From positions 1-43,499 of the IMG/VR virus record IMGVR_UViG_3300021061_000010: a stretch of DNA of 43,499 bases; one strand, given 5' to 3'. Made by a program: the position numbers and the translations under genes. Under the pieces are notes generated by a model, which was given only the letters and a program-made list of their open reading frames with translations, was not told the origin of the DNA and did not search any database. The DNA comes from a virus. Numbering within the stretch: position 1 is the first letter of the stretch; each line of letters opens with the position of its first letter. Positions 7,653 through 33,696 of this stretch are shown here, piece by piece.

Positions 7653-8027
7653 ATGCGCCACTTCCGCCAGCTCACCGACAGCACCATCAAGGAGATCTAT
7701 GCCGGCTACCTGTTGAATGAGCCGAAGCTCGCCATCGCCCGGCGCCTGTCGATCGACAACTCCACGGTCCACTACCACATCAAGAAGATCAAACACCTGC
7801 CGCGCGAGCAGCTCATCACCCTGTTCCGGCCCAAGTGCAGCGACGGCCACACGTCCTTTCATTGCGGGGTGTGTGGAAGTGCCTTTGATAACATTAAGAG
7901 CAATGAATTCTACGAGATTCTCCGGCTCCGGCAGCTCGTCGCGGATTTGCAGCGGCAGCTCAGTCAAAGGGTTTCTGTTCCCAATTTTCGCCCTGCTGCT
8001 GGCGGGATTCTTCGCATCATCGGCTGA
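7653..8027 (+). CDS. HTH plus zinc-ribbon small regulator
   Basis: A 124-residue protein. The N-terminal half reads as a helix-turn-helix of the Trp-repressor/transposase-like type (TIKEIYAGYLLNEPKLAIARRL, SIDNSTVHYHIKKIKH). Residues about 61-76 carry a Cys/His cluster (C, H, H, CGVC) that could bind zinc. It starts two bases after the glycine-rich gene, and its last 125 bases overlap the start of the large fibre gene in another frame. A DNA-binding role, perhaps at late promoters, is possible but is inference. It is the only HTH protein embedded in the tail operon. Confidence 0.65.
   Translation: MRHFRQLTDSTIKEIYAGYLLNEPKLAIARRLSIDNSTVHYHIKKIKHLPREQLITLFRPKCSDGHTSFHCGVCGSAFDNIKSNEFYEILRLRQLVADLQRQLSQRVSVPNFRPAAGGILRIIG
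7872..7902 (+). promoter_or_regulatory. Late promoter, TGTGGA-N11-TAACAT type
   Basis: TGTGGA (7872-7877), 11 bases, TAACAT (7889-7894), 8 bases, ATG 7903. The geometry equals that of the promoters at 1460, 37139, 39227 and 42129. It lies inside the coding region of the HTH protein and supports ATG 7903 as the fibre start. Confidence 0.6.
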
Positions 8028-11000
8028 CGCGCAGGTCGTTCCTCCCACGCGCGGCGGCCTCGGTACCAGCACACCGCCGACCTATGGCCAGATCCCCGTC
8101 GGCAATGCCAATGGGACGTACACCCTCACGAGCACGTCCTCCCTCGGCATCACGGGAAGTGGCGGTGCCGGTACTCCCGGCGGCTCAGACACGCAGATCC
8201 AGTTCAACGACGGCGGGAGCTTCGGCGGGGATGCAGCACTCACCTACAGCAAGCTCCTCGATCGCCTCTCCGTCTCCTACGCCTCGACGACCGCGCAGAC
8301 CATCTCCGGCTCACTGTACCTGGGCTCCCTCACGGGCGTCTTGCAGGCGATCGGCGGCCTGGTCTCGGCGACGAGCACCATCAGCCAGGCGTTCATCGAC
8401 AGTGCCATTGCGCGTGACAGCGAGCTGCACGACGAGGTGACGCTCGCCGGCACCCCCGACTACATCACGATAGCCAACCAGGTCATAACCCGCGGCCTCA
8501 TCGACCTCACGACCGATGTCACGGGCGTTCTGCCGGATGGGAACGTGGCAGACACGATCACGCTGACCAACCTCACCCAGATCACCAACCGCGCGATTTC
8601 AGACACGACCGGCACGCTCACGGTGAGCCGCGGCGGGACCGGCGCTACCACGCTCAGTTCCGGGCAATTGCTCTATGGCGCCGGCACAGGAGCGGTCCAG
8701 ACGGTCGCCACAACCACGCTGTCAGCCAGCTCGCCGCTGTCCCTCTCAGCCAACACCGTCGTCATCGGCTCTTCGCCGATCACCCTTTCCATAAGCACCG
8801 CGGGCACCTGGTCAGGCAACGCCGGCACGGCATCGGCACTGGCAGCCAATGGCTCCAATTGCTCAGCCGGGCAGTTTCCGCTTGGCGTGAGCGCCGCAGG
8901 TGCGGCCGAGAGCTGCACTGATGCGTGGACGGAAGCCGAGAACACGGCCGCTGCCTATGTCAGCACGGTCGGCGTCAATTCCTTCATCCACGGCTCGACG
9001 ACGATTCCCAAGACCTACACCAGCAACACCTTTGGCGGCACGCAGACCTTCTCGAATACGATCAGCGGCAGCGTCTCTGGCACCGCGTCCGCCCTTTCAG
9101 CCAATGGCACGAACGCTTCGGCCGGCAACGCCATTGTCGGTGTGGACGCCTCCGGCAATGCCGAGGGCGCCTTTGACGTGTGGACTGAGGCGGAGAACAC
9201 CGCTGCGGGCTACCAGACGCAGGCCGAGGTGAATGCCTTCATCCACGGCTCCAGCACGATTCCGAAAACATACTCGGCGAATACCTTTACGAACACCGGC
9301 ACTACGAGCTTCGCTGGCGGCCTCACGGCTTCTCGACTCGACGCGTCGGCAACCTCAACGTTCGATGGCCTCGTCGTGGCGACGGGTGGCCTCAAGGTCT
9401 CCACGCTCGTCTCCTGCAACACGGTGGACACCGACGCTTCAGGCAACTTCATCTGCGGTTCTGATGCGACGGGAGGCGTCGGAGGTGGCGCAAGCAGCAT
9501 CGCCACATCGAGTCCCGAGACCTCTGGCCAGGTTCCCTACTGGACCTCGACCGGAGGAACACCGGCGACCTTGGGCAGCGACAGCGGCCTAGCGTTTGAT
9601 GCTGCGACCGACGTTCTGAGCGTCGGCGGGTGGGCTATCGCCACATCCTCGGTTGTGTGCGCCGTTGGCTGCGAATTCACGAGCATACCGACTGCACTCG
9701 CTTCACTGCCCTCCGGCGGCGGCGAGGTCCGGCTCAAGAACGAGACCTACACCCTCAGCAGCCCCCTCCTTATCGACAAGAGCCGCGTGTCTATTGTCGG
9801 CGAGGGCCGCTCCACGGTGATTGCCTTCAATGCATCAACGACACCAGTCGGCATCACCAACTCTGACTATGACACCCAGCTCAACTGGATCAACCTGGAG
9901 AACTTCGTCATCTCGCAAATCGGCGCGGCGGGGTACGGCACCTGCATTGACTACACTGAGATGGCCAACAGCACGTTCACGAACGTCGATTGTCTCAACG
10001 CCAACATTGGCTATATCGCTTCGACGACGAACACGCACTACAACACGATCATTTCACCGACGATCACCGTCAGCGGTGCTGGAGCGCGCGGATTCAGTGT
10101 CGAGAATAACGCCATTTTCCAAACCCTCATCAACGCGCGCATCAATCCGGGGACGCAAGGGACCGGCATCTACGTGGACGCTCACGCTTTCCATTGCGAG
10201 AGCTGCGAGGTAGAGACCAACGCCCTTATCGGCGTCGATGTCGGCTCAAATGGCCACGACGCCGAACTGGATGTGTACCTGGAGGGCAACGCGACAAACC
10301 TGCGCCTCGCCTCCGGCGTCGAAAACGTCCGCGTCACCGGCTTCATCGCGGACGCCGACACAGTGGCCCAGAACATCGTGGATAACGGCGTGCTCGGCCT
10401 TTCGGTCGATGCCCGCGTGCAATACGAGCCGAAGAACTACATCACTGGCAACAACTTCGGACTCGGCACGACGACCCCGAGCAAGCTTCTGTCAGTGGCC
10501 GGTAGCAGCATCTTCGCCATTGGTGACATGACGATCGACGGCAGCGACATCCTGTTGCGCGGCACGGCGGCCGACATCCGCTCTGACACGGATCTCGACC
10601 TCTATCCCGATAACCAGACCACTCGCGCCCTGCGCATCGACGACGCCACGACGCGGATAGATCTGAGCGCGCTCGGCGGAAACCTCGGCATTGCGGACAT
10701 CATCGAGCAAACCGCGTCCGGCACATCGACATTTGCCAGCTCACTCGATTCCGCTGCGGACATCGAAGCCGATCAGTTCTTTGGCACAGGCTCAGGCACT
10801 TCAACCTTCACCGGTGGCATTCGTGCACCGATCTTCAACGCCACGTCCAACACTGCGTCATCCACCTTCGCCAACGGCATCAACCTCACCGCAGGCTGCT
10901 TCGCGGTCTCCGGCTCGTGTCTGCTGGTGAACAAGGATCACCACTCATTCCCAAACTGGGCCTCAACGACGCCCATGATGCGCTCCTCGATCTACGCCTC

Positions 11001-11274
11001 GGCCGCATCCTCAACCATGGAGTGGTGCCCCGCCCGCTCAGGAACGATCATCGGCATCCGGGGCAAGGTCCGCACCGGCACGAGCCTGCTCTTCGCCTTC
11101 TCCGCCGCAGGCACGGCGACCTCGACGGCCTCACTCACCACAACGAATGGCCTAACGACCTTCTCATCCAACAACACCTTCACGAAGGGGAGCTGCCACT
11201 TCATTGAACTCGGTTCCGGCTCTGGGAATCCTGACGACGCTTCATTCTCCCTCGATGTTACGTACACGAATTAA
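7903..11274 (+). CDS. Large exported fibre/spike-like protein with beta-helix
   Basis: A 1123-residue protein. Residues about 18-43 form an export signal (KGFLFPIFALLLAG, then SSADA-Q as a likely cleavage site), unusual for a tail protein. S/T/G-rich repeats with GTSTPPT, STF and TTTPSK motifs follow, including an imperfect tandem repeat of about 85 residues (8822-9333). A region from about residue 580 to 830 (FTSIPTALASLPSGGGEVRL, then repeated short strands) resembles a pectate-lyase-like right-handed beta-helix, the fold of many tailspikes. GLGTTTPSKLLSVAG and STFANGINLTAGCF recall, from memory, Parcubacteria surface proteins. It could be a virion spike or a protein displayed on the lysogen surface. 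Confidence 0.7.
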   Translation: MNSTRFSGSGSSSRICSGSSVKGFLFPIFALLLAGFFASSADAQVVPPTRGGLGTSTPPTYGQIPVGNANGTYTLTSTSSLGITGSGGAGTPGGSDTQIQFNDGGSFGGDAALTYSKLLDRLSVSYASTTAQTISGSLYLGSLTGVLQAIGGLVSATSTISQAFIDSAIARDSELHDEVTLAGTPDYITIANQVITRGLIDLTTDVTGVLPDGNVADTITLTNLTQITNRAISDTTGTLTVSRGGTGATTLSSGQLLYGAGTGAVQTVATTTLSASSPLSLSANTVVIGSSPITLSISTAGTWSGNAGTASALAANGSNCSAGQFPLGVSAAGAAESCTDAWTEAENTAAAYVSTVGVNSFIHGSTTIPKTYTSNTFGGTQTFSNTISGSVSGTASALSANGTNASAGNAIVGVDASGNAEGAFDVWTEAENTAAGYQTQAEVNAFIHGSSTIPKTYSANTFTNTGTTSFAGGLTASRLDASATSTFDGLVVATGGLKVSTLVSCNTVDTDASGNFICGSDATGGVGGGASSIATSSPETSGQVPYWTSTGGTPATLGSDSGLAFDAATDVLSVGGWAIATSSVVCAVGCEFTSIPTALASLPSGGGEVRLKNETYTLSSPLLIDKSRVSIVGEGRSTVIAFNASTTPVGITNSDYDTQLNWINLENFVISQIGAAGYGTCIDYTEMANSTFTNVDCLNANIGYIASTTNTHYNTIISPTITVSGAGARGFSVENNAIFQTLINARINPGTQGTGIYVDAHAFHCESCEVETNALIGVDVGSNGHDAELDVYLEGNATNLRLASGVENVRVTGFIADADTVAQNIVDNGVLGLSVDARVQYEPKNYITGNNFGLGTTTPSKLLSVAGSSIFAIGDMTIDGSDILLRGTAADIRSDTDLDLYPDNQTTRALRIDDATTRIDLSALGGNLGIADIIEQTASGTSTFASSLDSAADIEADQFFGTGSGTSTFTGGIRAPIFNATSNTASSTFANGINLTAGCFAVSGSCLLVNKDHHSFPNWASTTPMMRSSIYASAASSTMEWCPARSGTIIGIRGKVRTGTSLLFAFSAAGTATSTASLTTTNGLTTFSSNNTFTKGSCHFIELGSGSGNPDDASFSLDVTYTN
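8822..9333 (+). repeat. Tandem repeat inside the fibre gene (about 255 bp period)
   Basis: Two consecutive segments encode GTASALAANGSN...WTEAENTAAAY...FIHGSTTIPKTY and GTASALSANGTN...WTEAENTAAGY...FIHGSSTIPKTY. The protein identity is high in the WTEAENTAA and FIHGS blocks and low between them, as in diverged fibre shaft repeats. Confidence 0.75.
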
Positions 11275-22739: not shown

Positions 22740-23864
22740 ATGCCTATTGTGACCCTCACGGACATGACCGTAAGAACGCTCAAGCCCGTGCAGGGCAAGC
22801 GGATAACGTACCTCGACAAGACACTCAAGGGGTTTGGCGTATTGGTCACGCCGAACGGCCACGCGTCCTACGTCCTCACCTTCGGTCCCAATCGCCAGCG
22901 CGTGAAGCTCGGCGACGTCGGCACGATCAAGTTGGCCGACGCTCGCACCGCTGCGCGCAACATCGCGGCACAGCGGCAGCTCGGCCAGTACGTGCCGACG
23001 CGTTCTCCGACCTATCAAGCCGCTATGGAAGACTATCTGGCGGAGCGGAAGCCGGATCTCAAGCCGCGCACCTACAAGGACTACGAGCGGCTCTTGAAGA
23101 GCTACGGCTTCGGGCTAGAGCGCATGGATGCAATCCTGCCGCACACCATCATCCAGAAGCTCAAGCCGCTCTCTCGCGGCGAGCGCAACCACGCGCATGT
23201 CGCGCTGAAGATCTTCTTTCGCTGGGCGTTCCGAAAGCATCTCATCGAACGCAACCCGTTCGAGCGGATGGATACCCCGAACAAGAGCAAGAAGCGGGCT
23301 CGAGTTCTGACCGACGCCGAGATCAAAGCCATTTGGAACGCAGCCACCGGCATGTTCGGGGACATCATCAAGCTCTGCCTGCTGCTTGGACAGAGGCGTA
23401 GCGAGATAAGTCACCTGAAGTGGGAATGGGTCACCGGCGACCTCATCACCCTGCCGCCGGAGATCACCAAGAACTCGCGAGAGCACACGTTTGTAGTCGG
23501 CCCGATGGCCCTCGCGATTATCAATGCCCAGCCGCGGCGCAACGATACCCCGTACATCTTCCCCGCACGCAAGCGCTGGCGGGACACGGCTACCGTCTAC
23601 AATGCCTGGAACAAGGACATGCCAAAGCTCCGCACGGCCTCACAGACAGTGGGATGGGTACCGCATGACTGCCGCCGTACGCTTCGCACCCGATGGAGTG
23701 AGCTGAAGATCGCTAGAGAGGTGGCGGAGAAGTACATCAATCACATCACCGGGGCGCAGAGCGACGTCGAGCAGATTTATGACAGATGGTCTTACCTTCC
23801 CGAGATGCGCGAGGCAGTACGACTTTGGGAGGAGCGCGTTTCCCAGCTCATTGCAGTAGGCTGA
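22740..23864 (+). CDS. int: Tyrosine recombinase, phage integrase
   Basis: A 374-residue integrase that would recombine attP with a tRNA-Gln attB. An N-terminal arm-binding domain (to about 90), a SAM-like core-binding domain (91-175) and a catalytic domain (185-374) are visible. Catalytic residues: R in GQRRSEIS (219 or 220), HDCRR (H309, R312), H335 in YINHITG and Y347 in QIYDRW. AAAGGAG lies 7 bases before ATG. The attP lies immediately upstream. The style (LTDxTVRTLKP, KLGDVGTIKLADAR) is common in proteobacterial elements. Confidence 0.9.
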   Translation: MPIVTLTDMTVRTLKPVQGKRITYLDKTLKGFGVLVTPNGHASYVLTFGPNRQRVKLGDVGTIKLADARTAARNIAAQRQLGQYVPTRSPTYQAAMEDYLAERKPDLKPRTYKDYERLLKSYGFGLERMDAILPHTIIQKLKPLSRGERNHAHVALKIFFRWAFRKHLIERNPFERMDTPNKSKKRARVLTDAEIKAIWNAATGMFGDIIKLCLLLGQRRSEISHLKWEWVTGDLITLPPEITKNSREHTFVVGPMALAIINAQPRRNDTPYIFPARKRWRDTATVYNAWNKDMPKLRTASQTVGWVPHDCRRTLRTRWSELKIAREVAEKYINHITGAQSDVEQIYDRWSYLPEMREAVRLWEERVSQLIAVG

Positions 23865-24251: not shown

Positions 24252-24674
24252 ATGGCGACGGAAGACCTGGGGCGCATCGTAAGCAAGGAGCGCGCCCGTC
24301 TCGTTAAGCTCAAACAGTCTCTCGCCGACAAGCGCAAGGCACTCGATGCCGAGATCGCCGAAGTAGAGAAGCAGATCACCGCAGCCGATGCGTACGCTTC
24401 CGCCCTCGGCGGGAGGGCTCGCAAGGCCAAGGCTGCCGGCGCACCTAAACAGCCTCGTGCCAAGCGCGCCTCAGGCGAGCCCACCTGGCGCGACCGCGTC
24501 CTCGACACCATCAAGGGGGGTAACGGCCTCAAGCGCGGTGAAATCCTCGCCGCCATGAGCATCGTCGAGAAGGAGAACAAGGGCGCCGCGCAGAACGTCA
24601 GCAACGCGCTCAACGCCCTCAAGAAGGCCGGCACCATCAAGCAGGAAGACGGCAAGTACACCGCAGCCGCTTAG
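24252..24674 (+). CDS. Coiled-coil plus winged-helix DNA-binding protein
   Basis: A 140-residue protein: N-terminal coiled coil (10-50, SKERARLVKLKQSLADKRK... EKQI), a basic Ala/Lys linker (55-75), and a winged-helix domain (76-138, WRDRVLDTIKGGNGLKRGEILAAM... NVSNALNALKKAGTIKQEDGKY). AGGAGG lies 5 bases before ATG. Flanked by two terminators, it is its own transcription unit. A histone-like or regulatory role in lysogeny is plausible. Confidence 0.6.
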   Translation: MATEDLGRIVSKERARLVKLKQSLADKRKALDAEIAEVEKQITAADAYASALGGRARKAKAAGAPKQPRAKRASGEPTWRDRVLDTIKGGNGLKRGEILAAMSIVEKENKGAAQNVSNALNALKKAGTIKQEDGKYTAAA

Positions 24675-24682
24675 ACGACACA

Positions 24683-24709
24683 GGGGAGGCATTTGACAGC
24701 CTCCCCTTT
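24683..24709 (+). terminator. Rho-independent terminator
   Basis: GGGGAGGC, eight-base loop, GCCTCCCC, then TTT and a T-rich tract. Ends the winged-helix gene. Confidence 0.85.
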
Positions 24710-24716
24710 CCATTTT

Positions 24717-24965
24717 CCTATGGGGATAATGATGCTTACCCTGTATCCCCATAGGCTCAGCTTTGCACATGGCCTAAAAGGCCAACAATTTCAACAGTTC
24801 CGCCACAGTCGTCCGGGGCTTTCGCCACCTGACCCAATAGCGTACACCTTGCCTTACCTCCTCCCTGCGGTCGTCGATCACAGACATCGGGCAAGCCCAC
24901 TTCACTTCGTTCGGGATACCCTATTGGGTCAGGTCGCTACTGCTCCCGACGACTGGGCGGTGACT
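24717..24965. other. Nested inverted-repeat region, possible origin or structured RNA
   Basis: No gene in 24675-25170. It holds (1) a perfect 12-bp inverted repeat CCTATGGGGATA / TATCCCCATAGG (24717-24728, 24744-24755); (2) TGGCCT-AAA-AGGCCA (24772-24786); (3) a 170-base nested structure: AGTT/GACT, CCGCC/GGCGG (24800-24804, 24956-24960), CAGTCGTC/GACGACTG (24806-24813, 24948-24955), GGGG/TCCC, and a perfect 14-bp ACCTGACCCAATAG / CTATTGGGTCAGGT (24827-24840, 24921-24934) with CTTGCC/GGCAAG inside. It precedes the plasmid-like replication genes, so an origin is as likely as an RNA. Confidence 0.6.
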
Positions 24966-25113
24966 CTTCTTAGCAGCGACAAATTTTGACAGTTTCTTCC
25001 CCACATTTCATGCGCGCCAAGCCCCAACCCTGACGAACTTCTTCCCACGCGACGCGCCTCAAGCCCACCCTGTTGACGGTTTACGGTTCCTGTTGTCTGT
25101 CGCTGTTCACCGC

Positions 25114-25141
25114 TTGCGCGATACTTGCCGGTAAGTATAAT
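25114..25141 (+). promoter_or_regulatory. Sigma70-like promoter of the replication module
   Basis: TTGCGC (25114-25119), 16 bases, TATAAT (25136-25141). The ATG is 30 bases downstream, leaving a short leader. Unlike late promoters it has conventional spacing. Confidence 0.65.
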
Positions 25142-25170
25142 TAGCTCATTACTCAATAACCGAAACCGAA

Positions 25171-25650
25171 ATGCCGAAAAACATTTCAGATTTTCTGCCG
25201 GCCACAACCATGGGCCGCGCAGTCGAAGGAGTACTTGTTACACCTTCAAAATTAGTAGCCACCGATACCTTCAAACTCATTGAGGTGAAGCACGAGAACC
25301 CCATTGAAAAGCCGGTAGTTCTCCGCCTCCCCAAAGGCATGAAGACGTTCGATGGGATTACCGCCACAGGAGAAACCGTCACACTCACGAAGAAAGGCGC
25401 CCTCTACCCTGCCGCTGACACCCTCGACCCAGACCAATATCCACGCTACGAGCAAGCGTTTCCCACGGAACAGCCACAGTTTCAGATCACCCTCTCACCC
25501 GTGCACCTCAAGGCTATTGCCACGGCGTACGAGAAGAGCAAGGCCGTACGGCTCTCATTCTACAGCGCTCGCAAGCCACTGCATTTCACAGATGGCACGC
25601 TCGGCCAAGAAGAGACCAAGCGCGCATTACTCATGCCTATCGTCGAATAA
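25171..25650 (+). CDS. Beta-clamp (DnaN)-like truncated protein
   Basis: A 159-residue protein. The C-terminal half (YPRYEQAFPTEQPQFQITLS, HLKAIATAYEKS, VRLSFYSARKPLHFTD, RALLMPIVE) follows the pattern of the last sliding-clamp domain, ending in the LMPI motif typical of DnaN. A normal clamp has three domains and about 370 residues; this has about one and a half. It could form a clamp from more subunits, act as a decoy for clamp-binding peptides, or have lost function. First gene of the replication operon. Confidence 0.55.
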   Translation: MPKNISDFLPATTMGRAVEGVLVTPSKLVATDTFKLIEVKHENPIEKPVVLRLPKGMKTFDGITATGETVTLTKKGALYPAADTLDPDQYPRYEQAFPTEQPQFQITLSPVHLKAIATAYEKSKAVRLSFYSARKPLHFTDGTLGQEETKRALLMPIVE

Positions 25651-25651
25651 T

Positions 25652-25849
25652 ATGACACCAGAAACGAAGTACTTTCTAGCTTGCAACCGGCGTCGCCTCG
25701 TCACCCTTTACGCCGACTACCTTGATGACATGGTTCAAAGCGAGCAGTTCCGCTTCATCGAAGATTTTCCGGAATGGGTTACTCGTGAGCACGAGCGTGC
25801 GCTTGAGGAGAAGGGCGAACAGGGCGAGAGCGGTGATTACGAGATTTAA
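25652..25849 (+). CDS. Small acidic protein (65 aa)
   Basis: Sixty-five residues (MTPETKYFLACNRRRLVTLYADYLDDMV... EWVTREHERALEEKGEQGESGDYEI), helical and acidic. One base after the clamp-like gene, so cotranscribed. Function unknown. Confidence 0.5.
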   Translation: MTPETKYFLACNRRRLVTLYADYLDDMVQSEQFRFIEDFPEWVTREHERALEEKGEQGESGDYEI

Positions 25850-26346: not shown

Positions 26347-27648
26347 TTGCACGTGACCTACCCTATCGGACAAAGGACAACAGGTGATGTCCTTTTGCTA
26401 TCGGACAACGAGCGCCGCCGGCACATCTACCTCATCGGCAAGACCGGCACCGGCAAGAGTTCACTCCTGCACAACATGATGATGGCCGACTTCCATGCCG
26501 GCCGCGGTTTTGCCTTTCTCGATCCCCACGGTACTGGCGCGGAACAAATCATAAACGCGACGCCGACCACGCGTACCAACGATGTCCTTTACCTCGACCC
26601 CCTCGACCCTTCACACGTCGTAGGGTTTAACCCGCTCATCCGCGTCCCGCCGCTCGACCGTGCCGCACTTGCGGATAACATTGCGGCGCTCCTCAAGTAC
26701 ATCTGGGCCGATAGCTGGGGCGTGCGCCTCAACTACATCCTCACGAACGCCTTGCGCCTCTTACTGGAGAAGCGCGGCACCACGCTCGTGAACCTCTCGC
26801 GCGTCCTCATTGACGAGGAGTACCGCAAGCGGCTCCTCACCCACTGCACGGACGGCGCCATCACGACGTACTGGAAGACCGAGTTCATGAGCTACAGCCC
26901 GAGCTACCGCGCCGAGGCGATCGGCGCCGTTCAGAACAAGGTGGGGCAGTTTCAAAACAATCCCATTCTCCGCGCCGTCTTCGGCCAGGTCTCCGGGGCC
27001 ATCCACCCCTACGACATCATGGAGCACCGCCGCGTCCTCATCGCCGACCTCAGCAAGCGCATGGGCGAGGAGCCGTCGCGCATTCTAGGCTCTCTCCTCA
27101 CCACGGCCTTCTCCCAAGCCGCCGAGCGCCGCCGCACCATAGCCGAGGAGAAGCGTCAGGACTTCACGCTCTACCTCGACGAGTTCCAGTCCTTCACCTC
27201 AGAGAGCATGGGCACGATCCTCAGCGAAGCACGTAAGTGGCGCCTCAATCTCGTGCTCAGTCATCAATTCATGGACCAAATCCCCGAGAGCATCCAGCGC
27301 GCGGTGATCGGCAACTGCGGCACGCTGATCGTCTTTCGCGTGGGCTCGTTCGACACGCCCATTCTCGGCAAGGAGCTGGGATTACCAAATCCCAGCACGC
27401 TCTCCGACACCTCCAACTTCCAGGCGTGGGTGAAGCACCTCGCCTCGGACACCCCGAGCGAGGCGCTGCCCGTGACGATGCTGCCGCCGCAGGTGCCGCC
27501 GGAGCCCCGGAGGGGTGCCGTAGTGGCCCGGAGCCGCGCGCGGCACGCCAAGAAGCGGGACGACATCGAGCGCACCCTCGCGCCGCAGCTCGCCTACCAG
27601 CTGAAGAAGCCAAAACCTAAGAACAAGGCCACATCCCGCGAATGGTAG
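26347..27648 (+). CDS. VirD4/TraG-HerA-type DNA-translocating ATPase (soluble)
   Basis: A 433-residue ATPase from TTG 26347 (GGAGG 7 bases upstream). Walker A is GKTGTGKSS (31-39) and Walker B is TLYLDEFQSF (near 278); a conserved DPHGTG follows Walker A, and GNCGTLIVFRVG resembles sensor strands of the type IV coupling/TraG-HerA family. No membrane helix is visible. These hexameric motors push DNA through membranes or pores. Two such motors in a tailed phage is unusual; terminase is separate. Basic Lys-rich tail at the C-terminus. Confidence 0.8.
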   Translation: MHVTYPIGQRTTGDVLLLSDNERRRHIYLIGKTGTGKSSLLHNMMMADFHAGRGFAFLDPHGTGAEQIINATPTTRTNDVLYLDPLDPSHVVGFNPLIRVPPLDRAALADNIAALLKYIWADSWGVRLNYILTNALRLLLEKRGTTLVNLSRVLIDEEYRKRLLTHCTDGAITTYWKTEFMSYSPSYRAEAIGAVQNKVGQFQNNPILRAVFGQVSGAIHPYDIMEHRRVLIADLSKRMGEEPSRILGSLLTTAFSQAAERRRTIAEEKRQDFTLYLDEFQSFTSESMGTILSEARKWRLNLVLSHQFMDQIPESIQRAVIGNCGTLIVFRVGSFDTPILGKELGLPNPSTLSDTSNFQAWVKHLASDTPSEALPVTMLPPQVPPEPRRGAVVARSRARHAKKRDDIERTLAPQLAYQLKKPKPKNKATSREW

Positions 27649-27719
27649 GACTACGCCTTTTCTCCTATTGCGCGAGCAACTTACGATAGTTCCCAATTCT
27701 CCCAATTAGGGAGGAGCAC

Positions 27720-28079
27720 ATGCGCGTGTCGATTAACCACAGCGAGAAGCAAACCGGCGTCTTCAGGAAGACGACGCACTATATCGTCACCGTCAAGGTG
27801 GATTTCTCCGAGGAGGAGAAAGCGATCATCAAGCAGCGCGACCTCAAATCCACGGTGATCATGACGCGCAGCACACCCTCTCACATCAATACCAGCATCG
27901 ACGACATCTGGGACCTCACCATCTCCAAGCTCCTCAGCGGCCCCGACGATTACGGTCTGGAGACGCTCGCCAAGGCCAAGGACTATGAGGAGGTACTCAT
28001 CGATAGTCTCAAGGAGCTGAAGGATTACATTTCAGCGAACGAGGAGGTCGAGGAGAAGTCAAAGAGCTTCGAGCTGTAG
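27720..28079 (+). CDS. Small protein between the two DNA-transfer ATPases (119 aa)
   Basis: A 119-residue protein (MRVSINHSEKQTGVFRKTTHYIVTVKVDFSEEEKAIIKQRDLKS...). GGGAGGAG lies 5 bases before ATG. N-terminal strands and C-terminal acidic helices. Its stop overlaps the GTG of the second ATPase by one base. Possibly an accessory or adaptor for the ATPases; no family recognised. Confidence 0.55.
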   Translation: MRVSINHSEKQTGVFRKTTHYIVTVKVDFSEEEKAIIKQRDLKSTVIMTRSTPSHINTSIDDIWDLTISKLLSGPDDYGLETLAKAKDYEEVLIDSLKELKDYISANEEVEEKSKSFEL

Positions 28080-30163
28080 TGGCCGAGCGCGAGAACACCC
28101 CGTTTTGGGAGGGGCTGATCACGATTGTCGGCGTGCTGAGTTTGCCGCTGGTGATCGTGTTCACTCCCTTCTGGGGTATGTGGGCGGCGATCCGCACCTA
28201 CCTCGACAGCGAGGGGCCGCAGGAGCGCAAAGCCAAGGAACAGACGCACGCGCTGTACCAGCGTGCTCTCGCGCTCTCGCAGGCCGGCGCGTTCCCCGAC
28301 AAGGTGAAGTTCGGCCGCGCCATCGTCGAGAAGCTCCCCGAGCAGTATGCGCCGTACTTCGATCCCATCGTCTACACGCTGCTGGACCTCTACGACGCCG
28401 AGGTTCCGCACGGCGATGTCATCCCGCCACCACCGCCGCAGTGCGACAGCATCGAGGGCGGCCGGTATCGCGACTTCCTCAACCAGTACATCTACAAGCA
28501 CAGCAACCAGAGCCACTCCCGCATTGCCGTGGACGTCATCGTGCGTTCCTTCCGCGCATTCATCGAGGCGCTGCCCGAACCGCAGGAAGACGACGAGGCG
28601 CTGTTCAGCACGCCCATCACCACGCTCATACGTCCGCACGAACTTATCGAGGACCTGCTGCGGCCCTACTTCGAGCCCCAGGCTGACGAACTCTTCAAGG
28701 ATCTCCGTCGCACGCTGGAGCGCAATGTGCAGTCAGCGTCCGGCGCCGGCCGCACCAAGAATGCGCGTCTCATTCCGCCGTCCGAATACGATGGCGATGA
28801 CGTCGTTCATCAATATCTGCGCAACACGCCCTTTGAGCAGCTTTTCAACATCAAAATTCCGCTGGCGATCCCGGCGAAAAAATGGTTCGAGCACGCGGTG
28901 ATCTGGGGCACGCCCGGTAAGGGCAAGACCACCCTCATTCAGGCGCTCATCGCCAACTTCCTGCCGGCGGTCGCACGCGGCGAGGCGTCGATCTTCCTCA
29001 TGGACAGTCAGGGCAGCGCGCCGAAGTCGCTCATCCACTCCGTCTCCAACCTCAAGGAATTTGCGCCCGGCGGATCGCTGCATGGACGCTTGATCTACGT
29101 CGAGCCCGACCCCACCAACCCCATCGCGATGAATCCGTTCCTCATGGGGCGTGACCGCGACAAGCAGTACACCGCGCGCGACCGTGAGCAGCTCCACAAT
29201 CAGACGATCGAGTTGCTTGCCTACATCTTCTCCGCGCAGGGGGAGAACGCCGCGTTCACCAACAACCAGGCCATCCTCTATCGCTGGACGATTGAGCTGC
29301 TGCTTCTGCTGCCGAACCCCAACCTGACCACGTTTCTCAAGATCATGACCGAGGGTGTGGAGCCGTACAAAGCCGAGATCGCGCAGCTCTCCGAGGCTGG
29401 CCGCACCTTCTTCGAGAAGCAGTTCAATCAGGGCCAGTTCAAGGACCGCCGCCCCGAGGTGGCCGCGCGTATCTCCGGCATCCTCCAGAACAAGGCGCTC
29501 GCCGCGATGTTTGACGCCGCGACGTGCAAGCTCGACCTCTTCATTGAGCTGTCAAAGGGCCGCGTCATCATCGTGGACACGGACAAGAACTACCTCGGTG
29601 ACGACCGCTGCACGCTGTACGGCCGCATCATGCTCGCGCTCCTCTTGCGCGCCTCGCAGGAGCGCACGGCCACATCCGACCGGAAACCTGTGTACTGCTT
29701 CATTGACGAGGCCGCGGACTACCTGAAGGCCGATCCGAAGTTCACCTTCCTGATTGACCAAGCGCGCAAAAGCAACGTCGCGATGATCTGCGCCAGCCAG
29801 CGCACCGGCCACATCCAGAGCCCGAACGTGCTCGACGCGCTCTCCGGCGTCTCCATCCACTTCGTGAGCACGAACAACGACAGCGACGCTCATAAGTTCG
29901 CGTCGATCATGCACACCAGCGCCGATTTCCTGCGGAACCAGCCGGAATACCACTTCGCCCTGACCGTGGACCGCTTCATCAACCGCGCCGTCTCCGTGCG
30001 CGTGCCTCTCACCCTGAGTACGCGCCAGTGGATGACGCACGGCGAGTTCGATGAGATTAAGCGCGACATGCACGCGCGCTACTCCGACCAGCCGCCCTCA
30101 CCCTCTACCCAGCCGCCGCCTAATTCACCGACCACCCCGCCGGCAACGCCGAGCACGTGGTGA
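28079..30163 (+). CDS. Membrane-anchored VirD4/TraD-like coupling ATPase
   Basis: A 694-residue protein from GTG. N-terminal membrane segment(s) at about 11-38 (EGLITIVGVLSLPLVIVFTPFWGMWAAI), a helical region, then Walker A GTPGKGKTT (about 277-285), Walker B CFIDEAADYL (about 538-547), and ASQRTGHIQSPNVLDALSGV near the C-terminal domain. A proline/serine-rich tail ends it. Membrane anchoring plus the motor is the architecture of conjugative coupling proteins that feed relaxase-bound DNA to a type IV secretion channel. It is adjacent to a relaxation-type replication protein, supporting a transfer or plasmid-maintenance role. Confidence 0.8.
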   Translation: MAERENTPFWEGLITIVGVLSLPLVIVFTPFWGMWAAIRTYLDSEGPQERKAKEQTHALYQRALALSQAGAFPDKVKFGRAIVEKLPEQYAPYFDPIVYTLLDLYDAEVPHGDVIPPPPPQCDSIEGGRYRDFLNQYIYKHSNQSHSRIAVDVIVRSFRAFIEALPEPQEDDEALFSTPITTLIRPHELIEDLLRPYFEPQADELFKDLRRTLERNVQSASGAGRTKNARLIPPSEYDGDDVVHQYLRNTPFEQLFNIKIPLAIPAKKWFEHAVIWGTPGKGKTTLIQALIANFLPAVARGEASIFLMDSQGSAPKSLIHSVSNLKEFAPGGSLHGRLIYVEPDPTNPIAMNPFLMGRDRDKQYTARDREQLHNQTIELLAYIFSAQGENAAFTNNQAILYRWTIELLLLLPNPNLTTFLKIMTEGVEPYKAEIAQLSEAGRTFFEKQFNQGQFKDRRPEVAARISGILQNKALAAMFDAATCKLDLFIELSKGRVIIVDTDKNYLGDDRCTLYGRIMLALLLRASQERTATSDRKPVYCFIDEAADYLKADPKFTFLIDQARKSNVAMICASQRTGHIQSPNVLDALSGVSIHFVSTNNDSDAHKFASIMHTSADFLRNQPEYHFALTVDRFINRAVSVRVPLTLSTRQWMTHGEFDEIKRDMHARYSDQPPSPSTQPPPNSPTTPPATPSTW

Positions 30164-30169
30164 GCGTGG

Positions 30170-30175
30170 TATAAT
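30170..30175 (+). promoter_or_regulatory. -10 box before the replication-relaxation gene
   Basis: TGGTATAATATACT contains TATAAT (30170-30175) with a TG just upstream. About 100 bases of leader separate it from ATG 30276. I see no strong -35. Confidence 0.5.
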
Positions 30176-30275
30176 ATACTCACGCACATTTGATCTAATC
30201 TCACGTTAGCTCCCGTTCGCACCTCGCCCTTCCGCCCTCTTTACATCCTCCGGCCGAGCGTGAACGACATGCTCT

Positions 30276-31304
30276 ATGCAGCGCGACACCCTCAACAGAA
30301 GGAAGCGATTCCACAAGCTCCCCGGCAAGACGAAGCACACCGGCGAGCGCCGGCAGCTCGAGATCACCGCGCGTGACGTCGCAGTCTTCAAGATCCTCGC
30401 GCGCTACCGCTACCTGCCCATCGACTTTATCTGGCGGCTGCTCCCCGCCGACATCCGCGGCACCTGCTACAAGCGCTTTCAGGAGCGCATGGGCGAGCTG
30501 CACCACCAGGACTACCTCAACCGTCCTCGTGCTCAGCGCCGTTCGGAAAACGCCAAATCCCGGCCGTTAATCTACGAACTCGGCTCGCAGGGCAAGGCCG
30601 AGTGCCGTGCGCGCGGCATCGAGATCTATCCCCGCCTCTCTGACCGGCAGCAATTTCCCCACGACCTCATGGCCTGCATGGTCATGGCCTACATCGAGAT
30701 CGCCTGCGCGGAGACCCAGGGCTTACAGCTCGTGACGTGGGAGGACATCTTAGAGCACCCCGCCACACCCGAAGTTCTCCGCGCGTCGAAGCATCCGCTC
30801 TCAATTCCCAAGATTCCCATCCGGCTCAACGGCACGAGCGTCTCCGCCAAGCGCGATAGTCGCCCCTTTGGTATCCGGGGCTATGGCGATGGAGGCAACC
30901 ACTACGCCTTCTGCTCGACCGGCATTGAAGCCGACTGTTCCAATGAGCCGCTTCGTCCGTCGGACATTACTGCCCGCGCCAACATCGAGGCGAAGCTCCG
31001 CGGCTACCTCTACATCGAGGAGGAGAAGGTCTACCAGACCCACTTCGGCTTTCCGAACAACCTCGACTTCTTCATCACTACGAGCAAGCGTCGTATGCGC
31101 AACATCATGCAGCTCTTTTCTGATCTCACGGGAGGTAAGGGCGCTGATCACGTCCTGTTTGCTTACCTACCTAACATGAACTCTGTCGAGACCGCGCCGG
31201 AGCCCAACGCCGAATTCTTCCTCCAGAACTTTGAGCGCGTGGGCCATCCGCCGTTCAACATCATCAACGAGCTGCACGCCGCACTACAAAAAGGGGCCGC
31301 ATAG
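30276..31304 (+). CDS. Replication-relaxation family protein
   Basis: A 342-residue protein. The N-terminal winged helix (ITARDVAVFKILARYRYLPIDFIWRLLP, about 29-57, then CYKRFQERMGELHHQDYLNRP) is typical of the replication-relaxation (plasmid replication/relaxase accessory) family. The remainder is alpha/beta with HDLMACMV (near 130). Such proteins start or assist plasmid replication or mobilisation and often neighbour TraG-like ATPases. It probably acts at an origin, perhaps in 24717-24965. Confidence 0.7.
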   Translation: MQRDTLNRRKRFHKLPGKTKHTGERRQLEITARDVAVFKILARYRYLPIDFIWRLLPADIRGTCYKRFQERMGELHHQDYLNRPRAQRRSENAKSRPLIYELGSQGKAECRARGIEIYPRLSDRQQFPHDLMACMVMAYIEIACAETQGLQLVTWEDILEHPATPEVLRASKHPLSIPKIPIRLNGTSVSAKRDSRPFGIRGYGDGGNHYAFCSTGIEADCSNEPLRPSDITARANIEAKLRGYLYIEEEKVYQTHFGFPNNLDFFITTSKRRMRNIMQLFSDLTGGKGADHVLFAYLPNMNSVETAPEPNAEFFLQNFERVGHPPFNIINELHAALQKGAA

Positions 31305-31566: not shown

Positions 31567-32424
31567 GTGACTACGACCTACAAGCTGAACTACGCGGAGC
31601 TGCGCCAGCAGATTCCGTTTGAGCAGGTATTTACTTACCTCGGTCTCGATAAGATCGTGCCGAGGATCAAGGCAAATCAGCACAAGGGCACCTGTCCCTT
31701 CTGCAAGAGCGCCAAATCCTTTGTCGCTACGTACGATGGCGGGGAAGACAAGACCGGGCGCTTCAACTGCTTCGCCTGCAAGTCCGGCGGCGATTGCATC
31801 GAACTCGTCAACCGCATGCGCGGCAACCCACGGCGCGACAGCCGCGGGGTCTATCAGGCCGCTGTGGAGCTTCGGGAACGGTTTCTAACAGTTACTCCGC
31901 CCTCGGGTACTGTTGGAACAGTTACCAAGGAACCGGGAACTGTTAGTACTGTTACCCGGTCCGACGACGGCGGGGCGCTTCTGGCCAAGCTTCAGAAGGC
32001 TCTGGAAGGCGTGGAGCCGGGGCATCCCGCCGTCGTTTCCCTCGGGCTTTCTGAGGAAACCTGCCGGCATTTTGGCGCTGGCTACAAGAACACCGGAGTG
32101 TCGGCGAAACGCCTGCTTATTCCGGTGCACGATCGCTCAGGCACCTTGGTTGCCATTTGCGGCCGGGCGGTCAGCGAGGATCAGCAGCCCAAGTTCCTGT
32201 TCCACCACTTCGATCCGGGGCAGACGATCTTCAATGCCCACCGGCTCAAGGAGGGGCAGGATCTCTACATCTGCCACGATCCCCTCGACGTGATGCTGAG
32301 CTACGAGAACGACCCCAGCCTCAACGTCGTGGCGGTCTTCAACGACGGACTCACGTCCGCGCAACACGACCTGATTTCCGGGCTCATCATGTCGCTGAAG
32401 TGCGAACTCTCGTTCTCCCTGTAG
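31567..32424 (+). CDS. CHC2 zinc-finger primase-like protein
   Basis: A 285-residue protein from GTG (GGAGG 6 bases upstream). The N-terminal CHC2-type zinc finger is clear: CPFC (43, 46) and CFAC (68, 71) with GRFNCFACKSGGD. Residues about 175-285 resemble the DnaG TOPRIM region (LLIPVHDRSGTLVAICGR, then LYICHDPLDVML), but the catalytic glutamate of the VEGYxD motif is replaced (ICHDPLD) and the DxD part is missing. At less than half of DnaG it may recruit or regulate a helicase/primase instead of synthesising primers. Confidence 0.7.
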   Translation: MTTTYKLNYAELRQQIPFEQVFTYLGLDKIVPRIKANQHKGTCPFCKSAKSFVATYDGGEDKTGRFNCFACKSGGDCIELVNRMRGNPRRDSRGVYQAAVELRERFLTVTPPSGTVGTVTKEPGTVSTVTRSDDGGALLAKLQKALEGVEPGHPAVVSLGLSEETCRHFGAGYKNTGVSAKRLLIPVHDRSGTLVAICGRAVSEDQQPKFLFHHFDPGQTIFNAHRLKEGQDLYICHDPLDVMLSYENDPSLNVVAVFNDGLTSAQHDLISGLIMSLKCELSFSL

Positions 32425-32979: not shown

Positions 32980-33696
32980 ATGACGCTTATGCTACATGCC
33001 GGCGCCAAGGCCATCGATTACGACGGTTTGCGCGGGCTAGAGACGCCACCGGGCACCCCTACTCACGTTCCCATCCCGCATCACCTGCTCGTGGACATCA
33101 CCCGCAACATGCTCCAGTTCTATGGGCATGAGATTGTGGATGAACACTTCGGTGTGACGGAGGATCAAAATCGATTCTTCTGCTGCCTAACCCTCAAAAG
33201 CGCCTACGGCAGTTACGGAGACATGGTCGGGTTGCGCAACAGCCACGACAAGACCCTGCCGATCGGCTTGGCCTTCGGTTCCCGCGTCTTCGTCTGCGAC
33301 AACACCGCCTTCATTGCGGATCATGTCGTTCGCAGGAAGCACAGCAAACGGGCGCGTCACGAACTCCCATCCATCATTTCGGAGATCGTGGAGCCCCTGC
33401 AATCCCAGCGGGAAGCTCAGCATCGCAAGCTGACCCTGTACCAGAACACCCCGCTCCGGATCGAGCACGCGGATCATGCGGTGATCGAGATGTACCGCCG
33501 CGGTGTGCTCGGCATTACCAAGATCGACGACGTGCTCAAGGCGTACGAGGACCCACCCCACGACTGGGGCGACCACACGGCCTGGCGCATGTTCAACGCC
33601 GCGACGTTCGCCCTCACCGGCAAGGTCGCGGAAGATCCCCGTCTCACCAAGACGCTTCATGAGGTGATTGATGCGGTGTGCAAACCTACGACGTAA
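32980..33696 (+). CDS. DUF932-like phage/plasmid protein
   Basis: A 238-residue protein with the DUF932-type pattern: NSHDKTLPIGLAFGSRVFVCDN in the middle and a helical C-terminus (VIEMYRRGVLGITKIDDVLKAY, HTAWRMFNAATFALTGK). Members occur on plasmids and phages; function unsettled, possibly DNA-binding or replication-linked. AAGGAG lies 7 bases before ATG. It is regulated by the inverted repeat upstream. Confidence 0.65.
   Translation: MTLMLHAGAKAIDYDGLRGLETPPGTPTHVPIPHHLLVDITRNMLQFYGHEIVDEHFGVTEDQNRFFCCLTLKSAYGSYGDMVGLRNSHDKTLPIGLAFGSRVFVCDNTAFIADHVVRRKHSKRARHELPSIISEIVEPLQSQREAQHRKLTLYQNTPLRIEHADHAVIEMYRRGVLGITKIDDVLKAYEDPPHDWGDHTAWRMFNAATFALTGKVAEDPRLTKTLHEVIDAVCKPTT

Follow-up and report, generated by a model that had tools for sequence, protein, structure and literature searches.

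In integrative mobilizable elements (IMEs), MOBC-type relaxases are accompanied by a VirD4 coupling protein (PMC5357655; PMC5704250). Few mobilizable plasmids bring a coupling protein of their own, and those that do, like two Streptococcus IMEs, have MOBC relaxases (PMC5704250). Among phages, the Tyroviruses (Thrax phages of Bacillus, 160–170 kb) carry a type IV secretion gene (gp17) adjoining a replication-relaxation gene (gp18), a pair thought to derive from a conjugative plasmid, and a plasmid-prophage stage was proposed for them (PMC9703825). P1-like phage-plasmids are described as almost always lacking mob genes and an origin of transfer (oriT) (PMC10879196; see also PMC12977533). Here, we analyze a cassette at positions 26347–31304 of IMG/VR virus record IMGVR_UViG_3300021061_000010, where genes for two ATPases (A1 and A2), a 119-aa protein and a replication-relaxation protein (RR) lie in the genome of a tailed phage. 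‘The window’ denotes the whole stretch analyzed, 43,499 bases (positions 1 to 43,499 of the record). With a probability of roughly 0.5, we read the cassette as a mobilization-type DNA-processing module of integrating temperate phages that is exchanged with plasmids and IMEs.

The locus resembles systems combining a MOBC relaxase with VirD4 (MobB/MobC of CloDF13, Streptococcus IME class 8 and TraX of pAM373/pAD1) in placing a PF13814-family protein beside a VirD4-type ATPase, and IMEs with a MOBC relaxase in having an integrase and no type IV secretion system (T4SS) of its own. It differs from them in sitting in phages with virion genes and in its additional A1, 119-aa protein and primase. Tyroviruses, in contrast, are large Bacillota phages with ParM that form one lineage, and their excerpted description mentions no conserved oriT-like site (PMC9703825); tblastn with A2 and RR of the window found no Bacillus phage. 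P1-like phage-plasmids and P1-derived mobilizable plasmids likewise connect phage-related elements to mob/oriT (PMC10879196), whereas the present module sits alongside virion genes and an integrase and is found again in many phages. Our searches of the open-licence literature found no description of the module or its palindrome, nor any account of the module recurring in phages whose virion genes differ.

Gene content and predicted folds

The module and its surroundings comprise the following features.

22740–23864, plus strand: tyrosine integrase near the module (phrog_1, E 2.4e-49; Phage_integrase, PF00589)
24789–24972, no strand: nested inverted repeat of ~180 bp between the integrase gene (int) and A1, candidate oriT or relaxase site
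26347–27648, plus strand: A1, soluble TraG/HerA-like ATPase of 433 aa with a TrwB_AAD_bind match and Walker A and B present
27720–28079, plus strand: 119-aa cassette protein, fold unassigned, with a 119-aa Sulfitobacter homolog
28079–30163, plus strand: A2, VirD4/TrwB-like ATPase of coupling-protein type, 694 aa, with an N-terminal hydrophobic segment
30276–31304, plus strand: RR, PF13814 replication-relaxation protein, MOBC-relaxase-like, 342 aa, with a MarR-like winged helix and a PD-(D/E)XK-like domain
31567–32424, plus strand: primase-like protein with a CHC2 zinc finger, the fifth module gene (phrog_47 DNA primase, E 1.2e-24)

A first-pass annotation of this DNA had reported a four-gene cassette of conjugation or mobilization type. 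All four open reading frames (ORFs) were found where reported, in the order A1, small protein, A2 and RR, with the CHC2 primase next. A protein 34% identical to the 119-aa protein stands in the same order on a Sulfitobacter plasmid, and 13 other viral contigs also carry the cassette, so the arrangement is not due to chance.

RR matched PF13814 (Replic_Relax) with E 4.6e-7 and 30.5 bits (curated cut-off 25.3), and CONJscan assigns proteins of this family to MOBC (MobC) (PMC5357655). In the control plasmid pAM373, typed MOBC, a PF13814 protein scored 27.1 bits, with the coupling protein 0.86 kb away. Residues 29–114 of the RR model (m760652c2806e) matched MarR proteins (Z 11.0, root-mean-square deviation (rmsd) 2.4, 76 aligned), and TraX of pAD1 reportedly has a MarR-like DNA-binding domain as well. 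For the C-terminal domain, the top Foldseek matches were restriction endonucleases at nonsignificant scores (FokI, E 0.034). The two-domain plan of TraX, the MOBC prototype, resembles the architecture of RR (PMC12857230). In an L-INS-i alignment of 21 RRs, 21/21 sequences have both the PD-motif D and the first acid of E-x-D, and the third acid (D or E) is kept in 20/21. This alignment puts D194 of the window in the D column, unlike an earlier MAFFT alignment that had F198 there and thus an apparent loss of the catalytic D. These sequence data point to a MOBC-like relaxase-family protein with putative nicking activity.

A1 matched Pfam TrwB_AAD_bind (E 1.7e-6, 27.7 bits; cut-off 20.5); its TTG start was assigned mechanically, and the true start is unsure. 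The A2 sequence remained below every Pfam cut-off (FtsK, 22.7 bits versus 24). Both gave only weak TraD/VirB4-type matches in NCBIfam, and they are distantly related to each other (20% identity, pairwise E 1e-7). The AlphaFold2 model of A2 (m31484fed4d76, mean confidence (pLDDT) 79) had TrwB as its top match (VIA Z 22.2, rmsd 3.8, 348 aligned; Foldseek E ~1e-7), followed by DndH (Z 21.9), VirB4 (Z 21.8) and DotL, with DndH and VirB4 tied with TrwB; HerA-Sir2 and HerA-DUF4297 are further structural neighbors. A hydrophobic N-terminal stretch (8–38) occurs in A2 and not in A1, which agrees with the proposed membrane-anchored A2 and soluble A1, and the segment was present in the window and nine other phages.

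Walker A and B are intact in A2 of 14/14 phages. The Walker A motif of A1 is kept in four (the window, L121, L149 and L154; L and G numbers denote our loci and contigs) and lost in at least 9/14 (L016, L017, L117–L120, L122, L126 and L157); it was unscored for L127, where the A1 position came from a tblastn match and not from an ORF scored by hidden Markov model. A2 is therefore the only conserved motor. Of the two VirD4-like motors named in the first-pass annotation, the claim holds for A2 and weakens for A1, for which the loss of Walker residues in relatives, offered there as grounds for refutation, did partly occur. The genes for terminase, portal, capsid and tail stand apart from the cassette, which supports the view, already expressed, that A1 and A2, as ATPases of VirD4/HerA type, are not packaging machinery.

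A conserved inverted repeat upstream of A1

The repeat between int and A1 has 52-nt arms (24793–24844 and 24917–24968) that are 75% complementary. Its DNA fold gave z -5.35 (0/200 shuffles). Taken alone, it is unremarkable in the window: in a genome-wide scan by 170-base segments, the segment at 24651, ranked fourth of 510, overlaps the repeat at its left edge only and additionally contains a separate short hairpin. Its conservation is the notable feature. Comparable repeats occupy the same int–A1 interval of L119, L121, L122 and L127. A covariance model built from these five was searched against 65 sources (979,009 bases) and recovered six more copies on the plus strand with E below 1e-3 (L126, L016, L009, L013, L118 and L120), all at A1 or at most ~130 bp upstream; the L118 copy overlaps the mechanically assigned TTG start. 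A plain inverted-repeat search added copies upstream of A1 in G015, G018 and G019.

A census of 14 phage contigs (572,861 bases) counted 16 repeats whose arms are at least 18 long; 13 lie upstream of A1 at a distance of up to 1.8 kb, a limit chosen after the hits were seen, and five phage repeats in this census, including that of the window, had trained the covariance model. A repeat lies upstream of A1 in 12/12 phages whose contig includes that DNA, the count leaving out G001 and G009, whose contigs begin at A1. Among nonphage loci, it precedes A1 in L009, L013 and L008, and none was found before A1 in L006, L010 and L011. This conserved, nested inverted repeat of ~180 bp upstream of A1 is newly described here and is a candidate oriT; a large inverted repeat has reportedly been found at the oriT of pAD1. 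An apical sequence motif was confined to L119, L121 and L122 and was not used. Separately, a second, short inverted repeat (30-nt arms, 70%) lies within the primase gene of the window (31885–31946).

Recurrence in phages

The termini of the window share an exact 127-bp repeat; the contig therefore closes, giving a closed genome of 43.4 kb. Pfam and PHROG scans placed head genes from 34641 to the contig end, with tail genes continuing from the contig start. Because terminase, portal, capsid and tail proteins and an integrase are all encoded, the window qualifies as a tailed temperate phage. The integrase, correctly noted before, has homologs in 10/13 other cassette phages and in elements L006, L008 and L011 (29–34% identity).

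A2, RR and primase are carried by 13 further viral contigs, mostly with unrelated structural genes. We screened phage neighbors through 80 kept relatives of the large terminase subunit (TerL), out of 232 found, plus 18 capsid relatives. The two close structural relatives whose contigs extend far enough upstream, L016 and L017, have major structural proteins 59–69% identical to those of the window and A2–RR–primase upstream of the terminase. A scan of viral_contigs with 11 A2 sequences gave 14 contigs, namely those of L006, L016 and L017 and 11 new ones (G009–G019, 40.5–50.5 kb), and in 11/11 of the latter A2, RR and primase follow in that order. When viral_contigs was scanned with A1 and RR as single sequences, no relatives emerged; alignment-based scans did better. 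tblastn of RR gave nothing in phages or plasmids.

Among 14 records searched (G000, G001, G005 and G009–G019), TerL was found in 11 (not in G009, G011 and G014) and the phrog_12 portal in five. Most of G009–G019 have no structural protein in common with the window by tblastn, and G015, G017 and G018 show weak tail matches; the module is thus conserved while virion genes change. In most phages, the cassette lies with an integrase.

Relatives in plasmids and integrative elements

On Sulfitobacter plasmid NZ_CP081110, a 119-aa protein (34% identity to that of the window, pairwise E 8e-18), an A2 homolog (28%) and a replication-relaxation protein are ordered as in the window, with an A1 homolog (32%) elsewhere on the plasmid. 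A scan of genome_contigs with an A2 pair alignment yielded seven relatives, all from Alphaproteobacteria by their titles, and not from Patescibacteria, in whose plasmids a search for the cassette had been suggested. The full order A1–small–A2–RR–primase is common to the window, L009 (a Bradyrhizobium metagenome-assembled genome, MAG) and L013 (a Xanthobacteraceae MAG), the small ORFs of the latter two being assigned by position without a sequence match. Primase homologs lie downstream of RR in L009 (36%) and L013 (33%) as well as in the other cassette phages, and homologs of the small protein precede A2 in L003, L006, L008, L010 and L012.

The order small–A2–RR recurs in Rhodobacterales integrative elements. 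In L006 and L008, A1 stands beside a serine recombinase and is followed by small–A2–RR and then by restriction–modification genes; a tyrosine integrase related to that of the window closes the element in L006, L008 and L011. The cargo beside RR consists of a NotI-like nuclease and a cytosine methylase in L006 and a type I restriction subunit in L008. Overall, the alphaproteobacterial elements (L006 and L008–L013) and NZ_CP081110 share with the window the small–A2–RR order, with A1 nearby or elsewhere and a related integrase in three, and they differ in that some have a serine recombinase beside A1 and restriction–modification cargo and mostly no phage genes were seen.

L006 and L014 are two parts of a single IMG/VR contig (2898945296_000003) that also bears capsid and terminase genes. 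This 34-kb contig has two integrases and two A1 homologs, with a serine recombinase next to each homolog; it may hold two elements side by side.

A2 is sporadic, occurring in 9/385 genomes of the class of L008 (query genome included) and in 5/398 of the phylum (E up to 1e-30). In an A2 tree of 31 rows (L169, L174, L175 and L178 of 35 were dropped as duplicate or partial), phage and nonphage sequences are interleaved, and the 14 phages do not form one clade (six changes). We read this pattern as probable cassette exchange, in a weakly resolved tree with many long, weak branches. The nearest sequence to A2 of the window is L007, from a Robiginitomaculum MAG contig (42% over 606 columns).

Mobilization and competing explanations

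The first-pass annotation proposed an episomal phage-plasmid. The ParA-type ATPase PF13614 was found in 0/13 cassette phage records, with the control positive in 14/14 genomes, so plasmid-like maintenance is not supported. The scans of window ORFs with Pfam or PHROGs gave no replication initiator, and the sister phage G001 has int at one contig end and the cassette at the other, as expected of an integrated prophage. A phage-plasmid is recognized by partition or replication genes replacing the integrase; from its predicted genes, the window would not be classed as one. Self-transmissible conjugative elements have a T4SS of their own, and the cassette phages do not appear to, VirB4 (PF03135) occurring in 0/13 records with a positive control in Caulobacter.

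The suggestion of conjugation-like transfer fared better, given a relaxase-family protein, a TrwB-like ATPase and an oriT-like inverted repeat. By analogy, a relaxase-family protein with its own coupling protein, a primase and a palindrome but no VirB4 would correspond to the plan of a mobilizable element, and the simplest reading is that cassette prophages can be mobilized via the channel of a helper. RR, with its MarR-like DNA-binding domain and PD-(D/E)XK-like nuclease domain, would recognize and nick the large inverted repeat. A2, as a phage-encoded coupling protein, would bring the RR–DNA complex to the membrane and dock it to a type IV channel supplied by a helper, required because the phage encodes none. 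Priming of the transferred strand would fall to the primase, and the integrase would secure the DNA in the recipient cell. A1 would act as an accessory factor, an ATPase by origin and a nonmotor now in most phages. More tentatively, a widespread set of temperate phages may possess a complete mobilization unit and two exits, as virions and as single-stranded DNA through the conjugation channel of a coresident plasmid, with the unit shuttling between phages and alphaproteobacterial IMEs and A1, once a motor, as a site-linked accessory.

Virion transfer and conjugation are usually regarded as separate routes. A recurrent mobilization unit in phages with unrelated capsids would, if real, mean that some prophages hitchhike on conjugative plasmids and so evade the limits set by receptors, superinfection exclusion and capsid size. 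The locus provides a specific cis site and two trans-acting genes for testing. Some viruses may thus borrow conjugation or have turned its machinery to other use.

Several findings weigh against mobilization. The link from RR to MOBC runs through Pfam alone; among phage RRs, 6/11 match PF13814 and 4/11 exceed the cut-off, and a separate check assigned no family to RR of L119 and L125. Alignment of the RR profile (A5) with the pAM373 relaxase by hhalign found nothing (probability 0.2), and PF13814 had no match in CloDF13, which was unhelpful as a MOBC control. The locus differs from pAM373 and CloDF13 in these two respects, and RR is accordingly called MOBC-like and not a proven MOBC member. 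For the A2 model, HerA, DndH and VirB4 score near TrwB, and no N-terminal hydrophobic segment was seen in A2 of 4/14 phages (L016, L120, L125 and L129). MOB-suite typed the cassette-bearing plasmids as ‘non-mobilizable’. In G015, G018 and G019, A1 is separated from A2–RR and the repeat accompanies A1 and not int; its separation from RR is odd for an oriT. Mobilization leaves the linkage of repeat and A1 and the decay of the A1 motor unexplained; A1 may be a site-binding accessory protein, or the set may have an intracellular role.

That role is the main rival, although we consider it rather doubtful. Here, a mobilization-derived module would now work inside the cell, with RR nicking or binding the repeat for replication or for maintenance of the excised genome, the primase priming and A2 and A1 moving or tethering DNA. 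The proximity of integrase, primase and a clamp-like ORF fits such a role, as do retention of the module in many phages without a T4SS, the lost A1 motor in nine phages, the four A2s without an evident membrane segment and the form of the repeat, a large DNA palindrome of a kind that origins may contain. However, A2 retains both Walker motifs in every phage and has a membrane coupling protein as its top-scoring fold match, a TrwB-type motor is not obviously needed by an intracellular initiator, and integrative elements with restriction–modification cargo carry these genes too. If correct, this explanation would mean that a relaxase and a coupling protein were made into a new replication or maintenance module.

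It is improbable that the repeat is the attachment site (attP) of the integrase or a structured RNA, unrelated to transfer. Its position ~0.4–1.3 kb downstream of int in the window, L119, L121, L122 and L127 speaks for such a view, but it stays with A1 in G015, G018 and G019 while int stays with A2, and it precedes A1 in L009, where no int homolog was seen. The stems of 11 copies contain 226 Watson–Crick, 5 G–U, 5 A–C, 24 other and 4 gapped cells, and the repeat folds equally on both strands; equal G–U and A–C counts together with this symmetry indicate a DNA palindrome, and the structured-RNA option was rejected on the mispair counts. At the gathering score, Rfam matched nothing in the window, and at E up to 1 it matched nothing on the repeat in L119, L121, L122 and L127.

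Less probable still is a defense or antiplasmid system of the HerA/DndH-plus-nuclease kind, in which the A2 translocase would feed DNA to the PD-(D/E)XK nuclease of RR. DndH, HerA-Sir2 and HerA-DUF4297 are among the structural neighbors of A2, RR resembles a restriction-type nuclease and restriction–modification genes adjoin the cassette in L006 and L008. Yet A2 has its top fold match in the coupling protein TrwB, the MarR-like DNA-binding domain of RR has a reported counterpart in TraX, such systems include neither a conserved cis site nor a primase and the cassette accompanies an integrase in most phages. Chimeric assembly of phage and plasmid, to which the GC content of the cassette (61.3% versus 58.2% in the remainder of the window) might point, is highly improbable, as the contig closes on itself, two sister phages (head genes 59–69% identical) have A2–RR–primase at the same preterminase place and the module is found in 11 more contigs.

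Other features of the window and its relatives

One further ORF lies between the repeat and A1.

25171–25650, plus strand: sliding-clamp-like ORF (phrog_947 DNA polymerase processivity factor, E 4.5e-6)

It had no tblastn match in L001–L014 and is not clearly a member of the module. In the tail region, a protein of 1185 aa (7717–11274) matched no PHROG (E up to 0.1) and no Pfam family (E up to 0.01). For a DUF932 protein (32980–33696), identity is 60% to a protein next to A1 in Aliiruegeria L010 and 47–60% to counterparts in several cassette phages, far above the conservation of the cassette.

The terminase gene of a near relative (L098:576–2879) is split, with residues 1–429 at 576–1862 and 411–451 at 2757–2879; the insert of ~0.9 kb may be an intron, an intein or a homing gene. 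TerL matches with in-frame stops occur in G010 (24432–25757, TGA and TAG) and G019 (9692–11119, TAG), for which decay, frame error and recoding are alternatives. A host search with the portal protein gave 0 matches in 385 genomes of the class of the L008 genome and had no positive control. A subthreshold match to the Bradyrhizobiaceae small RNA BjrC68 (26.9 bits, gathering 39) at L119:6961–7012 is a possible host hint.

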